From the NCBI GenBank assembly GCA_945928315.1, contig CAMENN010000020.1, positions 1 to 33,356 on the forward strand: a DNA stretch of 33,356 bases. Reading direction: 5' to 3'. The notes below the pieces were generated by a model. That model was given only the letters and a program-made list of their open reading frames with translations, was not told the DNA's origin and made no database searches. The translations under genes were made by a program, and so were the position numbers. The stretch's first letter is position 1. Every line of letters begins with the position of its first letter. This DNA is from an uncultured Clostridia bacterium (GTDB taxonomy: Bacteria > Bacillota > Clostridia > Christensenellales > Aristaeellaceae). Of this stretch, positions 10,350 to 30,024 are shown one piece after another.

Positions 10350-11898
10350 TTACTCCTTCCCCTCGAGCGGGTGGTGGCACGCGACGAAGTGATTCGGCGC
10401 GATCTCCACCCACTCCGGCACCGCGTGCTTGCAGATCTCCGTGCAGTGCGCGCAGCGCGTGTGGAACTTGCAGCCCTTCGGCGGATTCACCGGGCTGGGA
10501 ATGTCGCCCTCCAGGATGCGCAGCTCCTTGTCCGCGTCGATGTCCGTCGTCGGAATCGCCGCCATCAGCGCCTCGGTGTAGGGGTGCTTCGGGTTATCAA
10601 AGAGCTCCTGCGTCGGCGCCAGCTCGACCATGTTGCCCAGGTACATGACGCCGATGCGGTCGGAGATGTACTTGACGACGGACAGGTCGTGCGTGATGAA
10701 CAGATAGGTCAGGTTGCTCTGCTGCTTGAGGTCGTAGAGCAGATTGATGATCTGGGACTGGATGGACACGTCCAGCGCGGAGACCGCCTCGTCGCAGACG
10801 ACGAACTTCGGCTTCACCGCCAGGCTGCGGGCGATGCCGATGCGCTGGCGCTGGCCGCCGGAGAACTGGTGCGGGAAGCGGTGCAGGAAGTAGCTGGCCA
10901 GGCCCGCGTCCTCCATCGTCTTGACGATATACTCCTGCATGCGCTCGTCGTTCTTCTTGAAGAAGCCGTGCGCCAGCAGGCCCTCGCCAATGATGTTGCC
11001 CACGGTCATGCGCGGGTTCAGCGAGGAATACGGGTCCTGGAAGATCAGCTGCAGATCGCTGCGCAGCGTGCGGATCTCCTTGTACTGCAGGCGCGCCAGG
11101 TCGATGCCCTCGTCGCGCAGCGCCTCGTATTTGGCGAACTCCGGGTCGTCCATGTGCGGCGCGCGCAGCTTGTCGAGCGCCTCGCGCACCTCGGCGATCT
11201 GCCCGTCGATGCCCGAGATCGTGCTGTCAAGCATCTGGGCACGCTGCTCATGCGCGTAGATCTTCTTGTCGTAGCCAGCGCGGCTCTTGCCCGCCTTTTC
11301 GGCCTTCTCGGCGTAGAAGCGCGCATCGTCGAGGTCGAGCTGCACGTCCTTGCGCTTCTCGCGCAGGCTGCGGCGCTGCCTGGACAGGCTGTGCTCCCGC
11401 AGGAACAGCGCGACCGGCTCCTTGATGTCGGGCACGGCCACAAAGCCGCCGATCAGGTTCGCCATGTCCAGCAGGGCGTCATTTTCCTCCTTGCGGGCAC
11501 GGGTCAGCTCGTTGAACTTCTTGTACTTCTCCTCGCCGTCGGGCATGGCGTCGTAGGCCTTCTGCTCGGCCTGTGCCTTGCGGGAGAGCTCCTTCCAGGC
11601 GGCGCGGCGCTTGTCGATGGTGCGCAGCGTCTTCTCGACGTAATCCGGGGCCACCTCGTCGAGCGTGCGGCCGTAGTACATGGTGCGGCCGTCGGTCTGG
11701 CGGTAGAGCTGGAGCAGCGTGCGGCCGAAGGTCGATTTGCCGCAGCCGGACTCGCCGACCAGGCCAAACGTCTCGCCCTCGTAGATGTCCAGCGTGATGC
11801 CGTCGTTCGCGCGGACGAACAGGCCCTTCTTCTTCAGCGGGAAATATTGCTTGAGGTTGCTGACGCGCAGCAGCACCTTCTTGCCCTCGTTCGGGTTG

Positions 11899-11915
<17 letters not shown>
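10350..11915 (-). CDS. oppF: Oligopeptide ABC transporter ATPase, OppF type, with a large coiled-coil insertion
   Basis: ATP-binding subunit of a peptide importer, 521 residues against about 320-340 for the family. Walker A is GESGCGKST (54-62), the Q-loop glutamine is 293 in IFQDPYSSLNPR, the signature SGGQRQ is 352-357, Walker B is FVVCDEAVSALD (371-382) and the switch histidine is 409. All are intact. The excess lies between Walker A and the Q-loop, residues about 95-283, mostly charged helix (for example KKFNELTRARKEENDAL and RRSLREKRKDVQLDLDDARF) that should form coiled coil. The C-terminal oligopeptide-transporter domain carries a four-cysteine motif (482, 488, 491, 495). The start is GTG after AAAGGAGGAGC, 17 bases inside oppD. 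Confidence 0.93.
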
Positions 11916-12894
<979 letters not shown>

Positions 12895-12907: not shown

Positions 12908-14764
12908 TTACCGTTCAAGCGCCTTGGGATCGAGCGCGTCGCGCAGGCCGTCGCCGATCAGGTTGATGCAGATGGTGCACACGCCGAAGATCGCCGCCGG
13001 GAACACCCACTGCCACCAGTACTGCTGGATGACGATGGAGTTGTTCGCGCCGTTGAGCAGGTTGCCCCACGTCGGCGTGGGCAGCGGGATGCCGAAGCCC
13101 AGGTAGGACAGCGTCGATTCGGTCAGCATGCAGGTTGCGAAGTCGAGCGTCATGGAGACGATCAGCAGGGAGATGACGTTGGGCAGGATGTGCCTGAAGA
13201 CGATCGTCCCCTCGCGGATGCCCATCGCCTTGGCGGCGGTGACGTACTCCATCTCGCGCTGGGCCAGGATCTGCGCGCGCACGAGGCGGCAGGTCGGCAC
13301 CCAGGAGAGCACGCCCAGCACGACCATGATCAGGTACATGCGCTGCGTGGGGTCAAGCCGCGTGCCGATGACGGCGGAGAGGATCATCGCGAACGGGATA
13401 AACGGCAGTCCGCCGACGATCTCCGCGATACGCATGATCAGGATGTCCAGCTTGCCGCCGAAATAGCCCGCGATGCCGCCGAAGAGCACGCCCAGAATGG
13501 TCGCGATGATGACGGAGATCGCGCCGACGGTCATCGTGACGCGGCCGCCGTTGACGATGCGCGTCAGCATGTCGCGGCCGAGGCTGTCGGTGCCCAGCGT
13601 GAAGCCCTTGAGGCCCCAGGTGTAGAGCTTGCCGTCGCTCCCCAGTGCGTAGTTCTGATAGTTGCTCACGAAGATGCGCTCGATGTTGTCCGCGCTGTTC
13701 ACGGCATCCGGCACATCGATCTGGTGATACTTGTTGTTGCCCCAGGAAACGACGTCGCCGTTCTCCAGCAGCGCGGTGTAGTGGTAGCGGCCGCCGTAGA
13801 GGTGCACCGGCTTGCTGGAAAGCGCCGGCACGTCCGCCTCGCCCTTGGTCGCGTTGCCCCAGACGATGATCTCGCCGTCCTCGGTCACCGCGGCGACAGA
13901 CTTGCTCGTGGAGGCGATGTCCACGACGGTCTTGCCCTTGAGCTCAGCCGGGATCTTGGCGAAGGGGGAGTTCTTGTCCTTGTAGCCCGTGTAGGCGACG
14001 GTGCCGTCGGTCAGCAGGCAGATGTACTCGTTCTCGGTGAGCGCCACCTTGGCGATCTTGCCCTCATACTTGCTGCGCAGCTTGATGTCGGCCATGTTGC
14101 CGTTGCCCCACAGATAGAGGTTGCCGTCCGAGGTAACGATGGCGGAGAACTGGTTGCTCGCCTCCAGCTGGATGACGTCCCAGGCGTCGCCGCCCTTCTT
14201 CATCGCCTTGGTCATGTCGGTGGTAAACTTGTCCTGCTGCAGGCGCGTGTTGCCCCAGACGTAGACCTGTCCGTCCGCCGCGACGGCGACGCAGTGGTCG
14301 GTGCCCGCAGCGATGTAGGTCAGATCGGCGTCCTGCACCTCCTGCGGGATGTCCGCCATGTCGATCTTGTCGGTCACGCGGGTCTGGCCCCAGATGTAGA
14401 GCTTGCCGTTCACATCCGTGCCCAGGCCGTAGGTGTTGCCGGAGGCGATGTCGGCCACGCCGGCGGCGAGCATCTCCTTCGGGACGGACATCATGTCGCG
14501 GGAGGGCGGCAGGTTCGTCAGCGAGGCGTCCTGATCGGACAGGTCAAGCGGCCAAATCTTCGGGCCGACGAGCACAAACACGAAGATCGCCAGGAAGACG
14601 ATCAGGCCCATCATGGCCAGCGGCTTGTGCACGAAGCTCGAGAGCATCGCCCGCATCGGGGTCTGGATGCGCTCCTCCTCCTCGGTGGACAGCTCGGAAC
14701 GGTCGCCAAGGAAGCAGCGCTTTGCCCAGCGCACGAGGAAGAATTCCTTTTTCTTGTTGCTCAT
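12908..14764 (-). CDS. oppC: Oligopeptide ABC transporter permease, OppC type, with an extracellular seven-repeat RCC1-like propeller
   Basis: Permease subunit of 618 residues, twice the usual length. Residues 1-47 are cytoplasmic and 48-68 are TM1. Residues about 100-387 are an insertion, after which the normal family sequence resumes at GFTLGTDSLGRDMLTRI, TM2 onward. The EAA loop is EYVTAAKAMGIREGTIVFRH (506-525). The insertion holds seven copies of an RCC1-like motif (Asp/Asn-Gly, then a hydrophobic pair and Trp-Gly): LYIWG 122, VYVWG 167, LYLWG 216, a degenerate VAYTG about 255, IIVWG 299, VVSWG 338, LYTWG 380. Spacing is 39-49 residues, as expected of a seven-bladed beta-propeller. With the N-terminus inside, the propeller faces outward. 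A GAGGAGG ribosome binding site precedes the ATG. Confidence 0.95.
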   Translation of the reverse strand: MSNKKKEFFLVRWAKRCFLGDRSELSTEEEERIQTPMRAMLSSFVHKPLAMMGLIVFLAIFVFVLVGPKIWPLDLSDQDASLTNLPPSRDMMSVPKEMLAAGVADIASGNTYGLGTDVNGKLYIWGQTRVTDKIDMADIPQEVQDADLTYIAAGTDHCVAVAADGQVYVWGNTRLQQDKFTTDMTKAMKKGGDAWDVIQLEASNQFSAIVTSDGNLYLWGNGNMADIKLRSKYEGKIAKVALTENEYICLLTDGTVAYTGYKDKNSPFAKIPAELKGKTVVDIASTSKSVAAVTEDGEIIVWGNATKGEADVPALSSKPVHLYGGRYHYTALLENGDVVSWGNNKYHQIDVPDAVNSADNIERIFVSNYQNYALGSDGKLYTWGLKGFTLGTDSLGRDMLTRIVNGGRVTMTVGAISVIIATILGVLFGGIAGYFGGKLDILIMRIAEIVGGLPFIPFAMILSAVIGTRLDPTQRMYLIMVVLGVLSWVPTCRLVRAQILAQREMEYVTAAKAMGIREGTIVFRHILPNVISLLIVSMTLDFATCMLTESTLSYLGFGIPLPTPTWGNLLNGANNSIVIQQYWWQWVFPAAIFGVCTICINLIGDGLRDALDPKALER

Positions 14765-14776
14765 TGCTCTTCCTCC

Positions 14777-15799
14777 TCACTTGTCCACGCGCACGCGCGG
14801 GTCAACCAGGCCGTAGCTGATGTCCATGAGCAGCGAGCCGACCAGGGAGACGATGGTGTAGAACATCTGGATGGCCAGCACCAGCTCAAAGTCCAGGTTG
14901 TTGAGGCCCGTCCAGTAGAGCTTGCCCATGCCGTTCAGGGAGAACGTGTTCTCGATGATGACCGAGCCGGAGAAGATGCTGATGAACCAGCCGATGATCG
15001 AAGTGATGATCGGCAGCAGCGCGTTGCGCCACGCATGGGAGTAGATGACGACCTTCTCCTTGAGGCCCTTGGCGCGCGCGGTGCGGATGTAGTCCATGCT
15101 CAGCGCGTCGATCATCGCAGAGCGGACGTAGCGGGTCATGCCGCCCAGGGACGCGAACGTCATGACGATGACCGGCAGCGTGATGTGATAGAGCATGTCG
15201 ATGAACTCATCCCACCGGGTCGCGTAGATCGCGCCGGCCGTCTTCGTGCCGGAGATCGGGAAGATGCGCCAGTGCACGCAGAAGAAGAACATGAAGATCA
15301 GCGCGATGATGTAGATGGGCAGGCTGTAGCCCAGCATCGTGACGACCTGCACGCCGTTATCGATCTTGCGCCCCTTGTGCACGGCACAGTAGATGCCCAG
15401 CGGGATGGTGATGCCCAGCGCCAGAATGGTGGAAAAGATGTTGATGAAGATCGTGTTGCCCATGGGCGCGGAGATGACGTCCACCACGTCCTTCTTGAAG
15501 AACTGGGAGTAGCCGAAGTTGCCCTGCAGAAGGCCGTTGAAGCCGCTGCCGTCCACGTCGGGCCACAGGCCCATCCAGCGCATGTAGCGCACGACCAGCG
15601 GGTCGTCCAGGCCCATCTTCTGACGCAGCTGCTGATACATCTGCTCATACTCGGCGGGCTTGAGACTCATCTTCTGCGCCTCCAGCTCCGCGCGGGCGGG
15701 GTCGGTGGGAATCAGGTTATACAGGGAGTACATCAAAAATGAAACGATGAGAAACACCAGCGCCATGTAGCCGATACGCTTGGCGATATACTTGCCCAT
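14777..15799 (-). CDS. oppB: Oligopeptide ABC transporter permease, OppB type
   Basis: Permease subunit of 340 residues with about six transmembrane segments. TM1 is at residues 7-30 (IGYMALVFLIVSFLMYSLYNLIP). A long outer loop includes MGLDDPLVVRYMRWM, LLQGNFGYS follows, and the EAA loop is DYIRTARAKGLKEKVVIYSHAWRNALLP. Length and motifs are normal, so the large insertion is confined to its partner OppC. Two ATGs occur three codons apart; the one at 15799 has GAGAGG at 8-base spacing, whereas the one at 15808 directly abuts that motif. It is 12 bases upstream of oppC. Confidence 0.94.
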   Translation of the reverse strand: MGKYIAKRIGYMALVFLIVSFLMYSLYNLIPTDPARAELEAQKMSLKPAEYEQMYQQLRQKMGLDDPLVVRYMRWMGLWPDVDGSGFNGLLQGNFGYSQFFKKDVVDVISAPMGNTIFINIFSTILALGITIPLGIYCAVHKGRKIDNGVQVVTMLGYSLPIYIIALIFMFFFCVHWRIFPISGTKTAGAIYATRWDEFIDMLYHITLPVIVMTFASLGGMTRYVRSAMIDALSMDYIRTARAKGLKEKVVIYSHAWRNALLPIITSIIGWFISIFSGSVIIENTFSLNGMGKLYWTGLNNLDFELVLAIQMFYTIVSLVGSLLMDISYGLVDPRVRVDK

Positions 15800-16064: not shown

Positions 16065-17966
16065 TTACTCGGCGACGGTGCAGTAGAGGATCGCCTGGTT
16101 GAAGTCCCAGAAGGAATCCTGCTCGTAGCCCTCGAGCCAATCCGGGTAGACCGTCATGTACACGTTGGAGTACAGCGGGATCTGCGGCAGCTCGTTGTTC
16201 CAGAGCATGATGAAGGCCTTCCAGTAGGTCATGTAGGTGTCCACATCGTCGGACTCCACGCCGTAGACCATGTTCATGGACAGGGCATCGAGGGACTCGT
16301 TCAGGAGACGGTTGAGGTTGTAGCCCTGCGCGATCATGTCCGGATCGAGCGTCCACTCGTAGGACTGGTCATACGCCGGGGTGAAGTTGGAAGCCAGGTT
16401 GTACATGCCGTAGGTCGGAACGGCGTACTTGTCGCCCTGGGAAGCGTCGCGGTAGTAGTAGTTGAGCAGCTCGGTGAACGTCATGACGTTCTGGTTGATC
16501 TGCATGCCCGCGGCAGCGGTCTGCTCGCCCTGCGCCAGCATGACGTTGAGCAGCTCGGACACCGGGTTGCCGTCGGAGGAGGACCACTCGATGATCAGCG
16601 GCATCAGGATGGTGCCGTCGGCCAGGGTCACGTTGTGCACATAGTTGCCAGCCTCGGCGGCGGTAACCTTCTTGTGGCGGATGTGGCCCTCGGTCCAGTC
16701 GGCGCCGGTCTCGTCATAGACCCAGCCGTCGTTGACCAGCAGCTCCACAGCGCCGTTCGGATCGTACTCGTAGGTGTTCAGGGAGAGCTCAAGCCACTCC
16801 TCGGCATCCTGGAACTGCCACAGGCCGGTGCCGTACGGGCCGTTCACGACGGAGCCCCAGCCCTTGCAGAAGGTGTTGGCGAACTCGTTGCGGTCCAGCA
16901 GCTTGGCGATGGCATGACGCACAGCCTTGAACTGGGTCGGGCCAAAGTCGCACTGGAAGTTGATCATGCCGTAGCCCGGACGGTCGAAGGTGGTGTAGCC
17001 GAAGCCGCCCGCCTCGACGATGTCCATCGCGTTGTTGATGTCGTCGCCATCGGTGATGGTGTCATAGAAGTTGAACGCGCCGGTCTTGAGCTGGTCCGCC
17101 CAGGTCGCATCCTCAGCACGGAGAATGACGATCTTCTCGATGGACGGCTTCTGGCCCTCGAAGTTGCCCGCGTAGTTCTGGTTGATGGTGAAGGTCGCCT
17201 GCAGGGCCGCCTTGTCGAACTCGACGAGGTTGTACGGGCCAGCGGAGACACGGTCCTCACCCGCGTTGAAGCGGGCGAACTCGAGCTGCTTGGAGATGGC
17301 GTCCGCGGTGAAGTCGCCCGCGATATAGGCGCCCTCGCCGTCGTCCTTCACATCAAGGCCCTCGCCCAGCCAGTACTTGAGGCTGAAGGGCATGTCCGCC
17401 ACGTAGGCCAGATCGTAGAAATACGGGATCTTGTCGGCCACGATGGTGACGGAGTAGGTGTAGTCGTCAATGAGGCGGATGCCGGAGACGGCGGTCGCGT
17501 TGCCGTCATAGTAATCCTGGCCGCCGACGTAGGTCAGGTAGCCGGTCAGCTTCGCGCCGGTATCGGTGGCCACCTTGGAGCAGGAGAAGATCATCGGCCA
17601 CACGAAGTCCTTCGCAGTGATGGCCTCGCCGTTGTTGTACACCAGGCCCTCGTTGATGGTCACGGTGTAGGTCTTGGAGCCGTCGTCGTTGACGACGCTG
17701 TCAAGGTTGGCGCAGATGGTCGGGTTGATGATGTACTGGCCGCCCTGATCGGTGGTGGTGACGGCGTAATCGTTCGTCATGTCACGGATCATCTTGTCGG
17801 TGGCGTTGTTGGTCCACCAGGCGCCCGGGGCGAAGTCGCCGCCGATCTCGGTGGAGGTACCATAGATGATGGTGCCCTTTTCCGAGGCGGTGTTCTCAGC
17901 AAACGCCACGACGCTCATGGAAGCGAGCAGGGCGATCGCCAGAAGAACGGAGAGAAGCTTCTTCAT
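16065..17966 (-). CDS. oppA: Oligopeptide-binding protein, OppA type, secreted without a lipid anchor
   Basis: Extracellular solute-binding protein family 5, 633 residues. The signal peptide is MKKLLSVLLAIALLASMSVV followed by AFA-EN, a signal peptidase I site. There is no cysteine in the first 30 residues, so no lipobox. The mature protein has family features: NPTICANLDSVVNDDGSKTY, NEGLVYNNGEAITAKDFVW, SAGPYNLVEFDK, and a C-terminal MTYWKAFIMLWNNELPQIPLYSN. It should capture peptides and deliver them to OppB/OppC. In a monoderm bacterium an unanchored binding protein would diffuse away unless retained, and the propeller in OppC is a candidate docking site (inference). The ATG follows CAAGGAGG. 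Confidence 0.95.
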   Translation of the reverse strand: MKKLLSVLLAIALLASMSVVAFAENTASEKGTIIYGTSTEIGGDFAPGAWWTNNATDKMIRDMTNDYAVTTTDQGGQYIINPTICANLDSVVNDDGSKTYTVTINEGLVYNNGEAITAKDFVWPMIFSCSKVATDTGAKLTGYLTYVGGQDYYDGNATAVSGIRLIDDYTYSVTIVADKIPYFYDLAYVADMPFSLKYWLGEGLDVKDDGEGAYIAGDFTADAISKQLEFARFNAGEDRVSAGPYNLVEFDKAALQATFTINQNYAGNFEGQKPSIEKIVILRAEDATWADQLKTGAFNFYDTITDGDDINNAMDIVEAGGFGYTTFDRPGYGMINFQCDFGPTQFKAVRHAIAKLLDRNEFANTFCKGWGSVVNGPYGTGLWQFQDAEEWLELSLNTYEYDPNGAVELLVNDGWVYDETGADWTEGHIRHKKVTAAEAGNYVHNVTLADGTILMPLIIEWSSSDGNPVSELLNVMLAQGEQTAAAGMQINQNVMTFTELLNYYYRDASQGDKYAVPTYGMYNLASNFTPAYDQSYEWTLDPDMIAQGYNLNRLLNESLDALSMNMVYGVESDDVDTYMTYWKAFIMLWNNELPQIPLYSNVYMTVYPDWLEGYEQDSFWDFNQAILYCTVAE

Positions 17967-23101: not shown

Positions 23102-24424
23102 TTATCTGGCCCGGATGGTCACCGTGATCTCCGGCGAGCTGAGCGCACAGGCAAACTCCGGCGCGTTGTCGATGCTGATCTGCACCGGCACGACGTGCGT
23201 GCCCTCGCCGAGACCGTTCACATCGACAAACAGGCGCACGTCGCTCTGCGACAGCCCGTTGATGAACGTGTAGGGGCCGGTCAGCTGCACGGTCTGCTTC
23301 TCGCGCGAGAGCGAGGCGCGCAGGCTGTCGTCCAGCCCATCCACCTCGACCTGCACCTGGCGCAGCGTGCGCTGTGCGGTCATCTCGCCGATTCTGGCCG
23401 TCACCGTGACGTCGTAGGGCACGGTGTTCTCGATGCCGGTCGGCCGGCGCAGGCGCACGGTTCCGGTCACGTCCTGCGTCGCGCCCTCGATGCTCAGCGG
23501 CTGGTCGGTCGTCAGCACGGTGATGGCGTCCAGCACCTCATCCGCGGCAGCGATGAGCAGGCTCTCCTGCGAGACGGTGACCTCCAGCAGCTCGTAGCCC
23601 TCGGCCGGCTCGCCCGTCACCAGCGATTCCACCTCCAGCGGCACCTCGCGCATCGGCACCAGCTCGGTCTCCACGACCACGGTGTCGGTGAGGACCGTCT
23701 GGTTGGTGATCTCGATCAGATCGGATTCCACGGTGTTGCCCGCGGCGTCCTGCAGGCGGATCTGCACGGAGTTGCGGTCGCTGCGCCGCTCGCCGGAGAG
23801 CAGGCTCACGTCGATGGACGCCACGGCGCGCGCCACCTGCGACACCAGAGACTGCGGGCCGGAGACGGAGAGCATCGTCGGGTCGGTCTTGGCAGAGTCG
23901 AGGTAATACCCCGGCAGCCCGCCGGATGTCTCCAGCACGACGGGCACGCGCCTTGTGATGTAGCGCTCCACGTTCACCCTGACGCTCGACGGCTCACAGG
24001 AGACGACCGGGCCGTAAAGCTGGCTGGAAAATGCGACGTTCAGCACGTTCTCTCCCTCGCCCGTGACCTGCGTCAGATCGATGTGCGGGTTGTAGGAGGT
24101 GCCGCTCACGCGGCTGTAGTTGCTCTGGGTGACCTCCACGGTCAGCTTCACGCCGGAGATGAGCGAGTCCAGATCGTCCATGACGATATAGCCCCGGCTC
24201 TTGAGCGTCGATTCGCCGGTGACGCTCACGGCGACGTTTTGAAACGTCTTTTCGCGGGTGAGCGTGCCGTCGGAGGCGACGAGGATGCTCCAGAAGACGA
24301 CGGCCGTCAGCAGCGAGAGCGCCATGAGAAAGGCGCGGCTGCCGAGGATGCGGCTGATCGCCCTGCGCAGCTCGCGGAACGGGCCGCGGGGGGCGTCAGG
24401 CTTTTTTGTCGGTCGGCTGTTCAT
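23102..24424 (-). CDS. cdaR: CdaR, YbbR-domain regulator of the diadenylate cyclase
   Basis: Extracytoplasmic protein of 440 residues. A short basic cytoplasmic segment is followed by one transmembrane helix (AFLMALSLLTAVVFWSILVAS), then a series of YbbR domains rich in beta strands (for example KSRGYIVMDDLDSLISGVKLTVEVTQ, ERYITRRVPVVLETSGGLPGYYL and PLEVESLVTGEPAEGYELLEVTVSQ). CdaR proteins bind CdaA and modulate c-di-AMP synthesis. It overlaps the end of cdaA by 29 bases. An AAAGGAGG lies upstream of adjacent GTG and ATG codons; the GTG at 24427 may be the true start. Confidence 0.93.
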   Translation of the reverse strand: MNSRPTKKPDAPRGPFRELRRAISRILGSRAFLMALSLLTAVVFWSILVASDGTLTREKTFQNVAVSVTGESTLKSRGYIVMDDLDSLISGVKLTVEVTQSNYSRVSGTSYNPHIDLTQVTGEGENVLNVAFSSQLYGPVVSCEPSSVRVNVERYITRRVPVVLETSGGLPGYYLDSAKTDPTMLSVSGPQSLVSQVARAVASIDVSLLSGERRSDRNSVQIRLQDAAGNTVESDLIEITNQTVLTDTVVVETELVPMREVPLEVESLVTGEPAEGYELLEVTVSQESLLIAAADEVLDAITVLTTDQPLSIEGATQDVTGTVRLRRPTGIENTVPYDVTVTARIGEMTAQRTLRQVQVEVDGLDDSLRASLSREKQTVQLTGPYTFINGLSQSDVRLFVDVNGLGEGTHVVPVQISIDNAPEFACALSSPEITVTIRAR

Positions 24425-25289
24425 CACGGGCGGCTCGCCTCCTTTGCTTGAAATGGAGCAGGGACGCGGCCAGGCGGCCGTCCTTTTCGTCCTTCTTCTC
24501 GTAGATGCCCTGCAGAATCTGATGGAGGGACGCCTCGTCCAGATGCCGGACCAGATGGCCGTCCTTGGCCATGGAGATGATGCCCGTCTCCTCGGAGACG
24601 ATGAACACGGTGGCATCGGAGACCTCGCTCACGCCCAGGCCCGCGCGGTGGCGGGTGCCCAGGTCGCGGCCCACGCCCGTGGTATCCGACAGGCGCAGCA
24701 GACATGCCGCGGCGACGACGCGGTCCCCGCGCACCACGACGGCGCCGTCGTGCAGGGGGGTATTCGGCTCGAAGATGTTCTCAATCAGCGGCTGGGAGAT
24801 GACGCCGTCCACCATGGTGCCGGTGGAAATGACGTCGTTGAGGCGGGTCTTCTGCTCGATGACGATCAGCGCGCCCACGCGCCGGCGCGCCATGTGCTCG
24901 AGCGCGAGGATCATCTCGTCGATGATCAGCTCCGTGTTGCTCAGCTCCTGCATGCGCGAGGTCGAATCAAACAGCGAGGTCGTGCCCAGCTCCTCGAGAA
25001 TGCGCCGGATCTCCGGCTGGAAGAGCACGATGAGCAGCACCGGTCCCGCGTTGATCACCCAACTGAGCAGCGCGTGGATCGTGCGCATGCCGATCAGGTC
25101 GCTGACCCAGGTCGCCGCCAGCAGGATGACGATGCCCTTGATGATCTGGGAGATGCGGGTCTGGCGGGTGTGGTTGAGCAGCGTGTAGATGATGAACGTG
25201 AGCAGCAGGATGTCCACGGCATCCACCAGGCGCGGCCTGTGCGTGATGTTCCACAGAATCGCGGAAATTTGTTCAGTCACCGAGCTCAC
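24396..25289 (-). CDS. cdaA: CdaA, membrane diadenylate cyclase (c-di-AMP synthase)
   Basis: Makes c-di-AMP from two ATP. It has 297 residues, somewhat longer than the usual 270-280. Three N-terminal transmembrane segments lie at about residues 22-38, 47-66 and 78-90. The DAC domain has both catalytic motifs, DGA (181-183, LHDGAVVV) and RHRAG (213-217, GTRHRAGLGVSE). A charged C-terminal tail follows. c-di-AMP controls potassium, osmotic and wall homeostasis in Gram-positive bacteria. The start is GTG, preceded by GGAGGG. Its cotranscription with cdaR is the standard arrangement; glmM, often third, is not present here. Confidence 0.97.
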   Translation of the reverse strand: MSSVTEQISAILWNITHRPRLVDAVDILLLTFIIYTLLNHTRQTRISQIIKGIVILLAATWVSDLIGMRTIHALLSWVINAGPVLLIVLFQPEIRRILEELGTTSLFDSTSRMQELSNTELIIDEMILALEHMARRRVGALIVIEQKTRLNDVISTGTMVDGVISQPLIENIFEPNTPLHDGAVVVRGDRVVAAACLLRLSDTTGVGRDLGTRHRAGLGVSEVSDATVFIVSEETGIISMAKDGHLVRHLDEASLHQILQGIYEKKDEKDGRLAASLLHFKQRRRAARDEQPTDKKA

Positions 25290-28395: not shown

Positions 28396-30024
28396 TTACA
28401 GCAGCGTCTCCACCGAGCGCAGCAGCGTCACCGCGGAGGCCGCGTTCGCCGCAGCGTCCGCCTCGATCAGCGTCTTCACGCTCGTGACGATCGTCTGCAC
28501 GCTCGCGTTGTCCGTCAGCACCAGCACGTCGTCCAGCAGCATCGTGATGGTCAGCTTGTTCGCCGCGGCATCCGCCTCCAGCAGCGTGATGACCGAACCC
28601 ACGATCACCTTCGCGTCCGTCAGGCCGGAGGTGGTCTGCACCGGGACCTCAACCGCCGGGGCCTGCTGCTCCTGCGTGCCGCTCGTCAGGCTGCTGATCG
28701 CCGAGCGGGCATTCGCCGCGCCCTGGGCGGCGGCAGCGGTCTGCGCGGTCGCCGCGGTTCCCAGGCCGTAGTCCACGGAGAACAGCTCATAGCTGGACTT
28801 GTAGTCCTTGCGCACGAGCAGGTACGCGCCGTCGCCGGACATGTTGATGCTGTCATACTCGCACGGGAACACCAGCTCGCCATGCCAGTCGATCACGCCG
28901 TAGCCGTTGCCGTCATACACCTTGAAGAGCATGCCGGAAGCGCCCTCCAGGCCCAGAATGCTCTTGTAATCGACCACCACGTCGTTGCCGTCCGCAGCGA
29001 GCAGATGGCGGTTATTCTCCATGTCGGTGTACAGCGCGGAGGCGCCGTACAGATCCATGATCTTCTCGGAATAGCGCGGCTCGCAGGTGACCTCGCCATC
29101 CATGTTCGCGAAGCCGACCTTGCCGTCACTCAGCACGCAGAAGTAGCCCGCCGCCTCATAGCTGTCGCTGCCGGTCTTTTTGTCGTACGGACCGTAGTAG
29201 TTGCGGCGGATGCGGTCGAACTGCGTCGGCAGCACCAGCTCACCCTTTGTGTTGATGAGGCCGTATTTCTCACCGTTGTACACGGTGGCGTAGTCGCCGT
29301 AGAACGCATCAATGGAGGAGTAGGACGGCTCCATAACGATGTTGCCCGCCGCGTCCTTGATGCCGTAGCGTCCGTTCTCGCGGTATGTGGTGTACTCCGG
29401 CGTCGCATAGTCGTCGTCGAAGGAATACTTCACCGTGCCCAGCGCGTTGAAGTCCGCATCATAGGAGGTGATCACGCCCTTGCGGTCCTCGATGTTGATG
29501 ACGTTGTACGCATCGTCCGCATCCTTGTAGCCATCGCGCGCAAGCGTCCCGACGCACGCGCCCTTCGTCAGGTTGTAGATGTCCACGCTGTCGATGACAA
29601 AGTGCTTGGTGTTGTCGCTCGAAGCGGTGTAATCGTAGTCCGTGCTGCTGGTCTCGGAGATCTTGATGGCGACCACCCAGTCCTTGCTCAGGATGTCCAC
29701 GACGCCGTACTGGTACGGGACGAGGAGATTGCCCTGCTCGTCGAACACGCCGGAGCTGTTCAGGCCGCCGTTCGCGAGCGCAGCGCAGACGTAGCCATAC
29801 GCATACGTGAAATTGCTGCTGTACGCCTCGCCGGTTACGTCCGTGCCGTCGATGCGCAGCACGTGATAGCCGTCGTTCTGCTGCACGCGGATCAGGCTGG
29901 AATCGTAAATGAACCGACCATCGCTCATCGTGGCGATACTCGTGAACGTCACCTCAGCCAGAGCGGTGCAGGTCAGGCACAGGCAGAGCGCCAGCGCCAG
30001 AAGCAGGGAAAGCGCCTTCTTCAT
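28396..30024 (-). CDS. Secreted WG-repeat protein
   Basis: Exported protein of 542 residues. The signal peptide MKKALSLLLALALCLCLTC ends near ALA-EV. Residues about 60-440 hold WG-type repeats, each with a glycine-turn-hydrophobic pattern: GRYGIKDAAGNIVMEPSYSSI, EKYGLINTKGELVLPTQFDRI, GKVGFANMDGEVTCEPRYSEKI, NGYGVIDWHGELVFPCEYDSI. An Ala/Gln-rich linker (ATAQTAAAAQGAANARS) follows. The last 90 residues contain a duplicated motif, LLEADAAAN and LIEADAAAN, of unknown role. WG proteins are thought to mediate binding; no enzymatic site is seen. The ATG has a CAGGAGG ribosome binding site and a TTGACT-N16-GATAAT promoter. Confidence 0.9.
   Translation of the reverse strand: MKKALSLLLALALCLCLTCTALAEVTFTSIATMSDGRFIYDSSLIRVQQNDGYHVLRIDGTDVTGEAYSSNFTYAYGYVCAALANGGLNSSGVFDEQGNLLVPYQYGVVDILSKDWVVAIKISETSSTDYDYTASSDNTKHFVIDSVDIYNLTKGACVGTLARDGYKDADDAYNVINIEDRKGVITSYDADFNALGTVKYSFDDDYATPEYTTYRENGRYGIKDAAGNIVMEPSYSSIDAFYGDYATVYNGEKYGLINTKGELVLPTQFDRIRRNYYGPYDKKTGSDSYEAAGYFCVLSDGKVGFANMDGEVTCEPRYSEKIMDLYGASALYTDMENNRHLLAADGNDVVVDYKSILGLEGASGMLFKVYDGNGYGVIDWHGELVFPCEYDSINMSGDGAYLLVRKDYKSSYELFSVDYGLGTAATAQTAAAAQGAANARSAISSLTSGTQEQQAPAVEVPVQTTSGLTDAKVIVGSVITLLEADAAANKLTITMLLDDVLVLTDNASVQTIVTSVKTLIEADAAANAASAVTLLRSVETLL

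Follow-up and report, generated by a model that had tools for sequence, protein, structure and literature searches.

A predicted RCC1/BLIP-II-type propeller inserted in an OppC-type peptide permease as a candidate docking arm for the binding protein OppA

Why should the permease of a peptide importer carry what appears to be a whole beta-propeller in one of its loops? The question is raised by oppC in a 33,356-nucleotide stretch of DNA (hereafter the window; contig CAMENN010000020.1 of assembly GCA_945928315.1, from an uncultured Clostridia bacterium), whose product is an OppC-type permease with about 295 additional residues in the loop between its first and second transmembrane segments (TM1 and TM2). 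A preliminary description of the window had counted about 290 such residues and had suggested an outward-facing docking or sensing domain. Based on the sequence comparisons reported here, we propose that the insert may serve the cognate substrate-binding protein OppA as an outward docking arm, comparable to the P2 domain of MalF (MalF-P2), a proposal that we judge to be about evenly poised between right and wrong. The parts of the permease are as follows.

12908..14764, reverse strand: oppC, permease with inserted propeller, 618 amino acids (open reading frame; Pfam OppC_N, RCC1_2 and BPD_transp_1; 80 relatives).
14504..14662, reverse strand: OppC_N region, residues 35-87, with TM1 at about 49-67 (Pfam, own-genome search, hydropathy).
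13604..14485, reverse strand: predicted seven-repeat propeller of RCC1/BLIP-II type, about residues 94-387 (Pfam, solved-structure and profile matches, repeat register).
12911..13600, reverse strand: permease core, residues 389-618, with BPD_transp_1 and with GTDSLGRD from residue 391 (Pfam, solved-structure match).

Outside the insert, the protein matches Pfam OppC_N (39.0 bits against a cut-off of 23.9) and BPD_transp_1 (110.2 bits against 26.4, residues 425-614), and the solved structure of Escherichia coli OppC aligns with the core from residue 387 (E 2.1e-51); the permease thus resumes at the LGTDSLGRDML segment, where the preliminary description had placed it. By these matches the window OppC is a permease of an oligopeptide-type ATP-binding cassette importer, for which peptide import is predicted, and its match to the NCBIfam Opp4C equivalog is limited to residues 388-614 and misses the cut-off (291.2 versus 350 bits). 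The insert, which lies between TM1 and the LGTDSLGRD segment, matches Pfam RCC1_2 in five stretches (97.8 bits against a cut-off of 22) and RCC1 (24.6 bits against 21.7, with no single stretch passing by itself), while its match to the whole-domain model WD40_RLD stays below the cut-off (125.1 versus 150 bits). Among solved structures the insert matches BLIP-II (E 4.1e-21), and with a profile built from 44 propeller segments the match to BLIP-II reaches E 8.7e-46, followed by HERC2, RCC1/SRM1 and UVR8, which excludes a chance resemblance; the BLIP-II profile match is made up of three repeat-shifted stretches of about 90-120 residues each and is not a single end-to-end alignment. The profiles point to a seven-bladed propeller of RCC1/BLIP-II type as the fold of the insert.

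Seven repeats are anchored at W125, W170, W219, T259, W302, W341 and W383, each followed by Gly, with spacings of 45, 49, 40, 43, 39 and 42 residues. The seven anchors and the range of 39-49 residues noticed earlier stand, whereas the claim that all are Trp-Gly (WG) does not, as the fourth repeat has Thr-Gly and the other six have Trp-Gly. Residues 75-391 correspond to a stretch of 302-319 residues in 77 aligned sequences, that of the window included. At its N-terminal end the insert has a VPKEM segment with no preceding WG, and its terminal WG has no following Val-Pro. If the VPKEM end and the last WG share one blade, VPKEM would supply the piece missing after the last WG and the seven units would close into a ring, as had been supposed from their number; the two ends of the insert would then come together, as insertion into a loop requires. 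Hydropathy places one transmembrane segment at residues 49-67 and more from about residue 403, with nothing hydrophobic within the insert (maximum 0.86). In OppC proteins the N-terminus and the EAA loop are on the inside. Hydropathy and this general topology put the insert most probably outside, in agreement with the preliminary description, and not in the cytoplasm. Given the antiparallel meander of such blades, one face probably bears both the GxxH hairpins and the loops after the WG anchors, and both tethers would also leave from it.

A domain found in a single assembled genome could reflect a chimera or an assembly error, an explanation that was rejected since all 80 relatives kept from a scan of genome contigs (104 candidate stretches, 88 of them relatives) match within the insert. 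The OppC frame is single and at least 600 amino acids long in 76 of the 80, the exceptions being three cut by contig ends (L076, L078 and L080) and one split by a frameshift (L077). Many of their records name animal gut or rumen samples. By name, most of the organisms are Clostridia/Clostridiales, Christensenella, Oscillospiraceae, Ruminococcus, Erysipelotrichaceae and Solobacterium, and a few others, such as Chloroflexi, Anaerolineaceae and Petrimonas, may be misnamed bins. Genome searches, which scored the best three candidates per genome in the 398-genome searches of the phylum and the best six in the order search and in the propeller-profile search, found the system in a part of the genomes at each level, so its distribution is patchy. 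Full-length matches of at least 599 bits occur in 14 of the 398 phylum genomes, the next match (292.7 bits) covering the core only; the order search, at E <= 1e-88, picked out 19 of 200 genomes, of which 18 carry the propeller and the last is truncated by the end of its contig; and 5 of the 13 listed genomes of the window's family match, the truncated one included.

A tree of 82 rows built on the core alone places all 57 propeller rows in one clade (support 99/99) with one change of state; several of its non-propeller rows sit on long branches, as the program warned, and the highest core identity to the window is 95% (L004). As far as this tree shows, the predicted propeller is an insertion of single origin that has been conserved. 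No clade member lacking it was found among the candidates scored in the 398-genome, order and core-tree sets, and the seven other OppC_N loci of the window's genome all lack it. With the propeller profile, 55 of the 398 genomes have matches at E <= 1e-12; the 14 OppC propellers score at least 229.9 bits, and the next match, a partial one, scores 122 bits. A permease was found in none of 16 other RCC1-type proteins of the phylum in the part of each that was seen, 10 of the 16 frames being cut by locus ends. These 16 proteins look secreted or anchored, as each has at most two hydrophobic stretches and most have one near the N-terminus.

RCC1_2 occurs in the window's genome at one place other than this oppC, an open frame of about 309 amino acids (L091, on contig C35 of G000). 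The window also encodes, at 28396-30024 on the reverse strand, a 542-amino-acid protein with WG_beta_rep repeats (PF14903), which belong to another Trp-Gly repeat family.

Could such a domain merely stabilise or space the importer, protecting the pore or extending its reach through a thick wall, with no specific partner? The loop does tolerate bulky inserts: although most OppC proteins inspected have the short loop that the preliminary description took as normal, another of the same class, that of L119 (G069, frame 688-2280), carries in the same loop an unrelated insert of about 220 residues with no Pfam match. The propeller is also more variable than the core, the mean pairwise identity being 0.49 for the propeller and 0.74 for the core. 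Against mere spacing, 27 of 301 propeller positions are invariant in 44 non-redundant sequences, and no clade member has been seen to do without the domain among the candidates scored. Positions conserved at 90% or more outside the repeat consensus, as we read it, include D156, R174, L175, Q205, N223, E309, R326, Q370, N371, L385 and K386, most of them on the assumed top face, and the polar R174, Q205, R326, Q370 and N371 among them are hard to ascribe to the repeat itself. We consider a purely structural role improbable.

The conserved residues also bear on the idea that the propeller stands in the substrate path, as an antechamber or lid over the pore that selects peptides by size or binds them itself. 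The propeller directly precedes the core, its last WG being separated from GTDSLGRD by only 6 residues, and the polar residues that are invariant in 37 aligned sequences (D156, Q177, Q205 and H328) all map to the assumed top face, in loops or at the ends of hairpins. RCC1 propellers, however, are known mainly as protein binders, and we regard a place in the substrate path as unlikely.

The other parts of the operon are as follows.

14777..15799, reverse strand: oppB, partner permease (Pfam; the likely ATG start is at 15799, and the listed open reading frame extends to 15847).
16065..17966, reverse strand: oppA, substrate-binding protein, 633 amino acids, with a signal peptide in which a pattern test finds no lipobox.
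11899..12894, reverse strand: oppD, ATPase (open reading frame, Pfam, NCBIfam).
10350..11915, reverse strand: oppF, ATPase in which an extra segment of about 195 residues separates Walker A from the conserved ATPase part that follows it (open reading frame, Pfam, alignment).
11088..11669, reverse strand: OppF insert, residues 83-276 (alignment to the insert-free OppF of L068).

The order oppA-B-C-D-F on one strand is found in 65 of 81 loci, the window included, and the other 16 are without end genes on the DNA covered; OppA, OppB and OppC are present in all of 26 further loci. In many relatives the OppB frame is about 338-344 amino acids. The best solved relative of the window OppA is 9p48, named as a peptide-binding OppA. 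At E <= 1e-45 the cognate OppA subfamily occurs in 13 of the 398 genomes, all of them among the 14 with the propeller, as judged from the best three candidates per genome, a search that was not exhaustive; in the fourteenth propeller genome (G306), without a match, oppC is at a contig end. One propeller genome has a second, more distant OppA-like protein (L150, on contig C28 of G328), and no other opp gene was found on its 7.5-kb contig.

The OppF insert, which has no Pfam match (window 11088-11672), is a charged segment of about 195 residues after Walker A that looks coiled-coil-like by eye. It is found in most propeller operons. At E <= 1e-150, insert-bearing OppF occurs in 12 of the 398 genomes, namely 11 of the 14 propeller genomes and G184, where the OppD-OppF pair adjoins genes other than oppABC; conversely, L068 has the propeller and a 352-amino-acid OppF with no insert. 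On account of these exceptions a strict tie of the OppF insert to the propeller was rejected, and the link holds mostly.

The N-terminus of OppA bears on a further possibility, that the propeller replaces a lipid anchor and tethers a secreted, unlipidated OppA. The lipobox pattern is matched in 33 of 67 OppA N-termini, a count that excludes truncated OppA starts and the second fragment of the split OppA of L020; by this simple and loose test (L047, scored as lacking a lipobox, may have one by eye) the window OppA and 33 of its 66 relatives have none. The remaining 33 relatives carry the same propeller and yet match the pattern. In addition, 7 of the 10 SBP_bac_5 proteins of the window's genome are without a lipobox even though its other OppC proteins are without a propeller, and the three that meet the pattern (L093, L098 and L100) also show ordinary cleavage sites by eye. 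Replacement of the anchor, which we consider very improbable, was largely rejected and survives only as a possible secondary role in the window's lineage. The seven proteins of that genome without a lipobox, among them the window OppA (16065-17966, reverse strand; the others are among L093-L102), have signal peptides. The OppAs of Oscillospiraceae and Erysipelotrichaceae loci mostly have a lipobox.

Does the propeller, then, diverge together with a particular partner? Complete sets of the five genes were available for 57 of the 81 loci and were reduced by identity to 30. A second set comprised 22 of the 26 further loci (L163 and L180 are incomplete, and L161 and L162 duplicate L074 and L058); OppF was unused, and OppC identity to the nearest of the first 30 is 40-72%. 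In the first analysis of the 30 loci, propeller and OppA were correlated at 0.46 (0.41-0.49 when each locus was left out in turn). With OppB split, OppA was the top partial correlate of the propeller (0.44, reached in 0 of 4999 permutations), and it ranked first in 292 of the 300 subsamples, each of 20 loci, that were drawn. The remaining partial correlations of the propeller included 0.19 with the OppF core (not permuted), 0.11 with the OppC core (109/999), 0.03 with OppD, 0.00 with the OppF insert, -0.09 with the N-terminal part of OppC and -0.12 with the outer loop of OppB. Speed of divergence alone is not the cause of the OppA signal, since two regions that diverge at least as fast, the N-terminal part of OppC and the OppF insert, show no link. 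The same matrix gave 0.52 for the OppB core with the OppC core, 0.41 for OppD with the OppF core and 0.39 for OppA with the OppB core; the first two are known contacts. In the second set the propeller was correlated with OppA at 0.30 (reached in 40 of 1999 permutations) and with its own OppC core at -0.02. Our reading of these values is that evolution of the propeller goes along with that of the importer's outer parts, among which OppA alone was linked to it in both sets.

Several results weigh against OppA as the partner. The partial correlation of the propeller with the OppB core (0.15) was also rarely reached by permutation (20/999), and the column-bootstrap range for OppA (0.19-0.49) overlaps that for the OppB core (-0.05 to 0.33). 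The N-terminal part of OppC and the OppF core, with no established contact, gave 0.34. The strongest correlate in the second set was the outer loop of OppB (0.41, 0/1999), at -0.12 in the first; part of the signal could therefore have its origin in an outer environment that these parts share. The excess of conserved polar residues that was expected in top over bottom loops is not significant (12/120 versus 2/68, p 0.089), and the figure of 10 versus 0 obtained without Asp is post hoc, with blade boundaries set by hand. The genome counts, moreover, stand on the best three or six candidates per genome mentioned above.

A partner elsewhere on the surface or among secreted proteins, such as a peptidase or a cell-wall, host or food protein, would tie the importer to a source of peptides while OppA docks on the permease as usual. 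The fast divergence of the propeller relative to the core is what a partner-facing domain might show, but this divergence tracks that of OppA, less strongly in the second set, and the chain probably enters and leaves on the face with the most conserved polar loops, which would point inward. We hold such a partner to be rather unlikely.

Docking of OppA is favoured because the OppA subfamily was found, among the candidates scored, solely in propeller genomes and because of the co-divergence with OppA; because the OppC frame is retained at full length in nearly all relatives and the core tree gives one clade; and because the other RCC1-type proteins of the phylum look secreted or anchored. We propose that the propeller would sit outside, over the OppBC pore, where it would capture OppA or position it above the translocation path, raising its local concentration or limiting which binding proteins dock, much as MalF-P2 does for the maltose-binding protein. 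By the argument from antiparallel blades, the tether face with the GxxH hairpins and post-WG loops would be the one turned to the pore and to OppA in its docked state. The docking suggested in the preliminary description gains indirect support from the company kept with one OppA subfamily and from the co-divergence. More tentatively, and with our doubt outweighing our belief, these operons might represent a class of importers in Bacillota, many of them gut-derived, in which the permease propeller is the dedicated receptor for one OppA subfamily, both forming a standing complex with the pore whose propeller ring above it gates the binding protein and hence the peptides. Apart from the importer, the window encodes, at 23102-25289 on the reverse strand, a CdaA-type diadenylate cyclase whose gene adjoins a YbbR-like gene.

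If OppA docking is correct, peptide importers would have a second, unrelated solution in which docking of the binding protein is handed to a modular domain, and the fold of a nuclear exchange factor and of a beta-lactamase inhibitor would serve anew as an integral component of a transporter. The propeller, portable and seemingly soluble, allows a direct search for its partner, and it gives an approach to the question of how importers that have many paralogous binding proteins keep them apart.

No description of an architecture combining RCC1 and a permease was found among open-licence PMC papers, in line with the preliminary description, which knew of no such transporter as described; OppC proteins with the domain are numerous, in dozens of genomes, and none was found described. 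A survey from 2022 places RCC1/BLIP-II third by group size in its set of highly repetitive propellers, and its main text is without the words 'permease' and 'transporter' (PMC9218822). BLIP-II is described as a seven-bladed propeller with three-stranded blades that binds TEM-1 beta-lactamase with picomolar affinity (PMC6121496), and the interaction of MalF-P2 with its binding protein is stated in titles within the reference lists of two papers (PMC3328499; PMC7756565).

Compared with solved OppC and DppC proteins (8z21, 8z1v, 8j5q and 8wd9), the window OppC has the same OppC_N and BPD_transp_1 domains, the same oppA-B-C-D-F setting and a core that aligns along its length, whereas the aligned chains have 287-302 residues instead of 618 and match the core only. 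L119 shares the insertion site and the kind of transporter and has an insert of its own, and the TM1-TM2 loop of OppC seems to be a place where outer domains are added. With the BLIP-II/RCC1 superfamily, the window domain shares the seven repeats and the Trp-Gly/Val-Pro register, but BLIP-II is a free secreted protein and the window domain sits inside a polytopic membrane protein. To our knowledge, outward permease domains that manage a binding protein are known from few importers, with MalF-P2 as the textbook case. MalF of the MalFGK2 importer resembles the window OppC in having an outward domain in a permease loop; it differs in permease family, loop and fold, and while MalF-P2 contacts its binding protein, the corresponding contact of the window propeller with OppA is the one that we propose.
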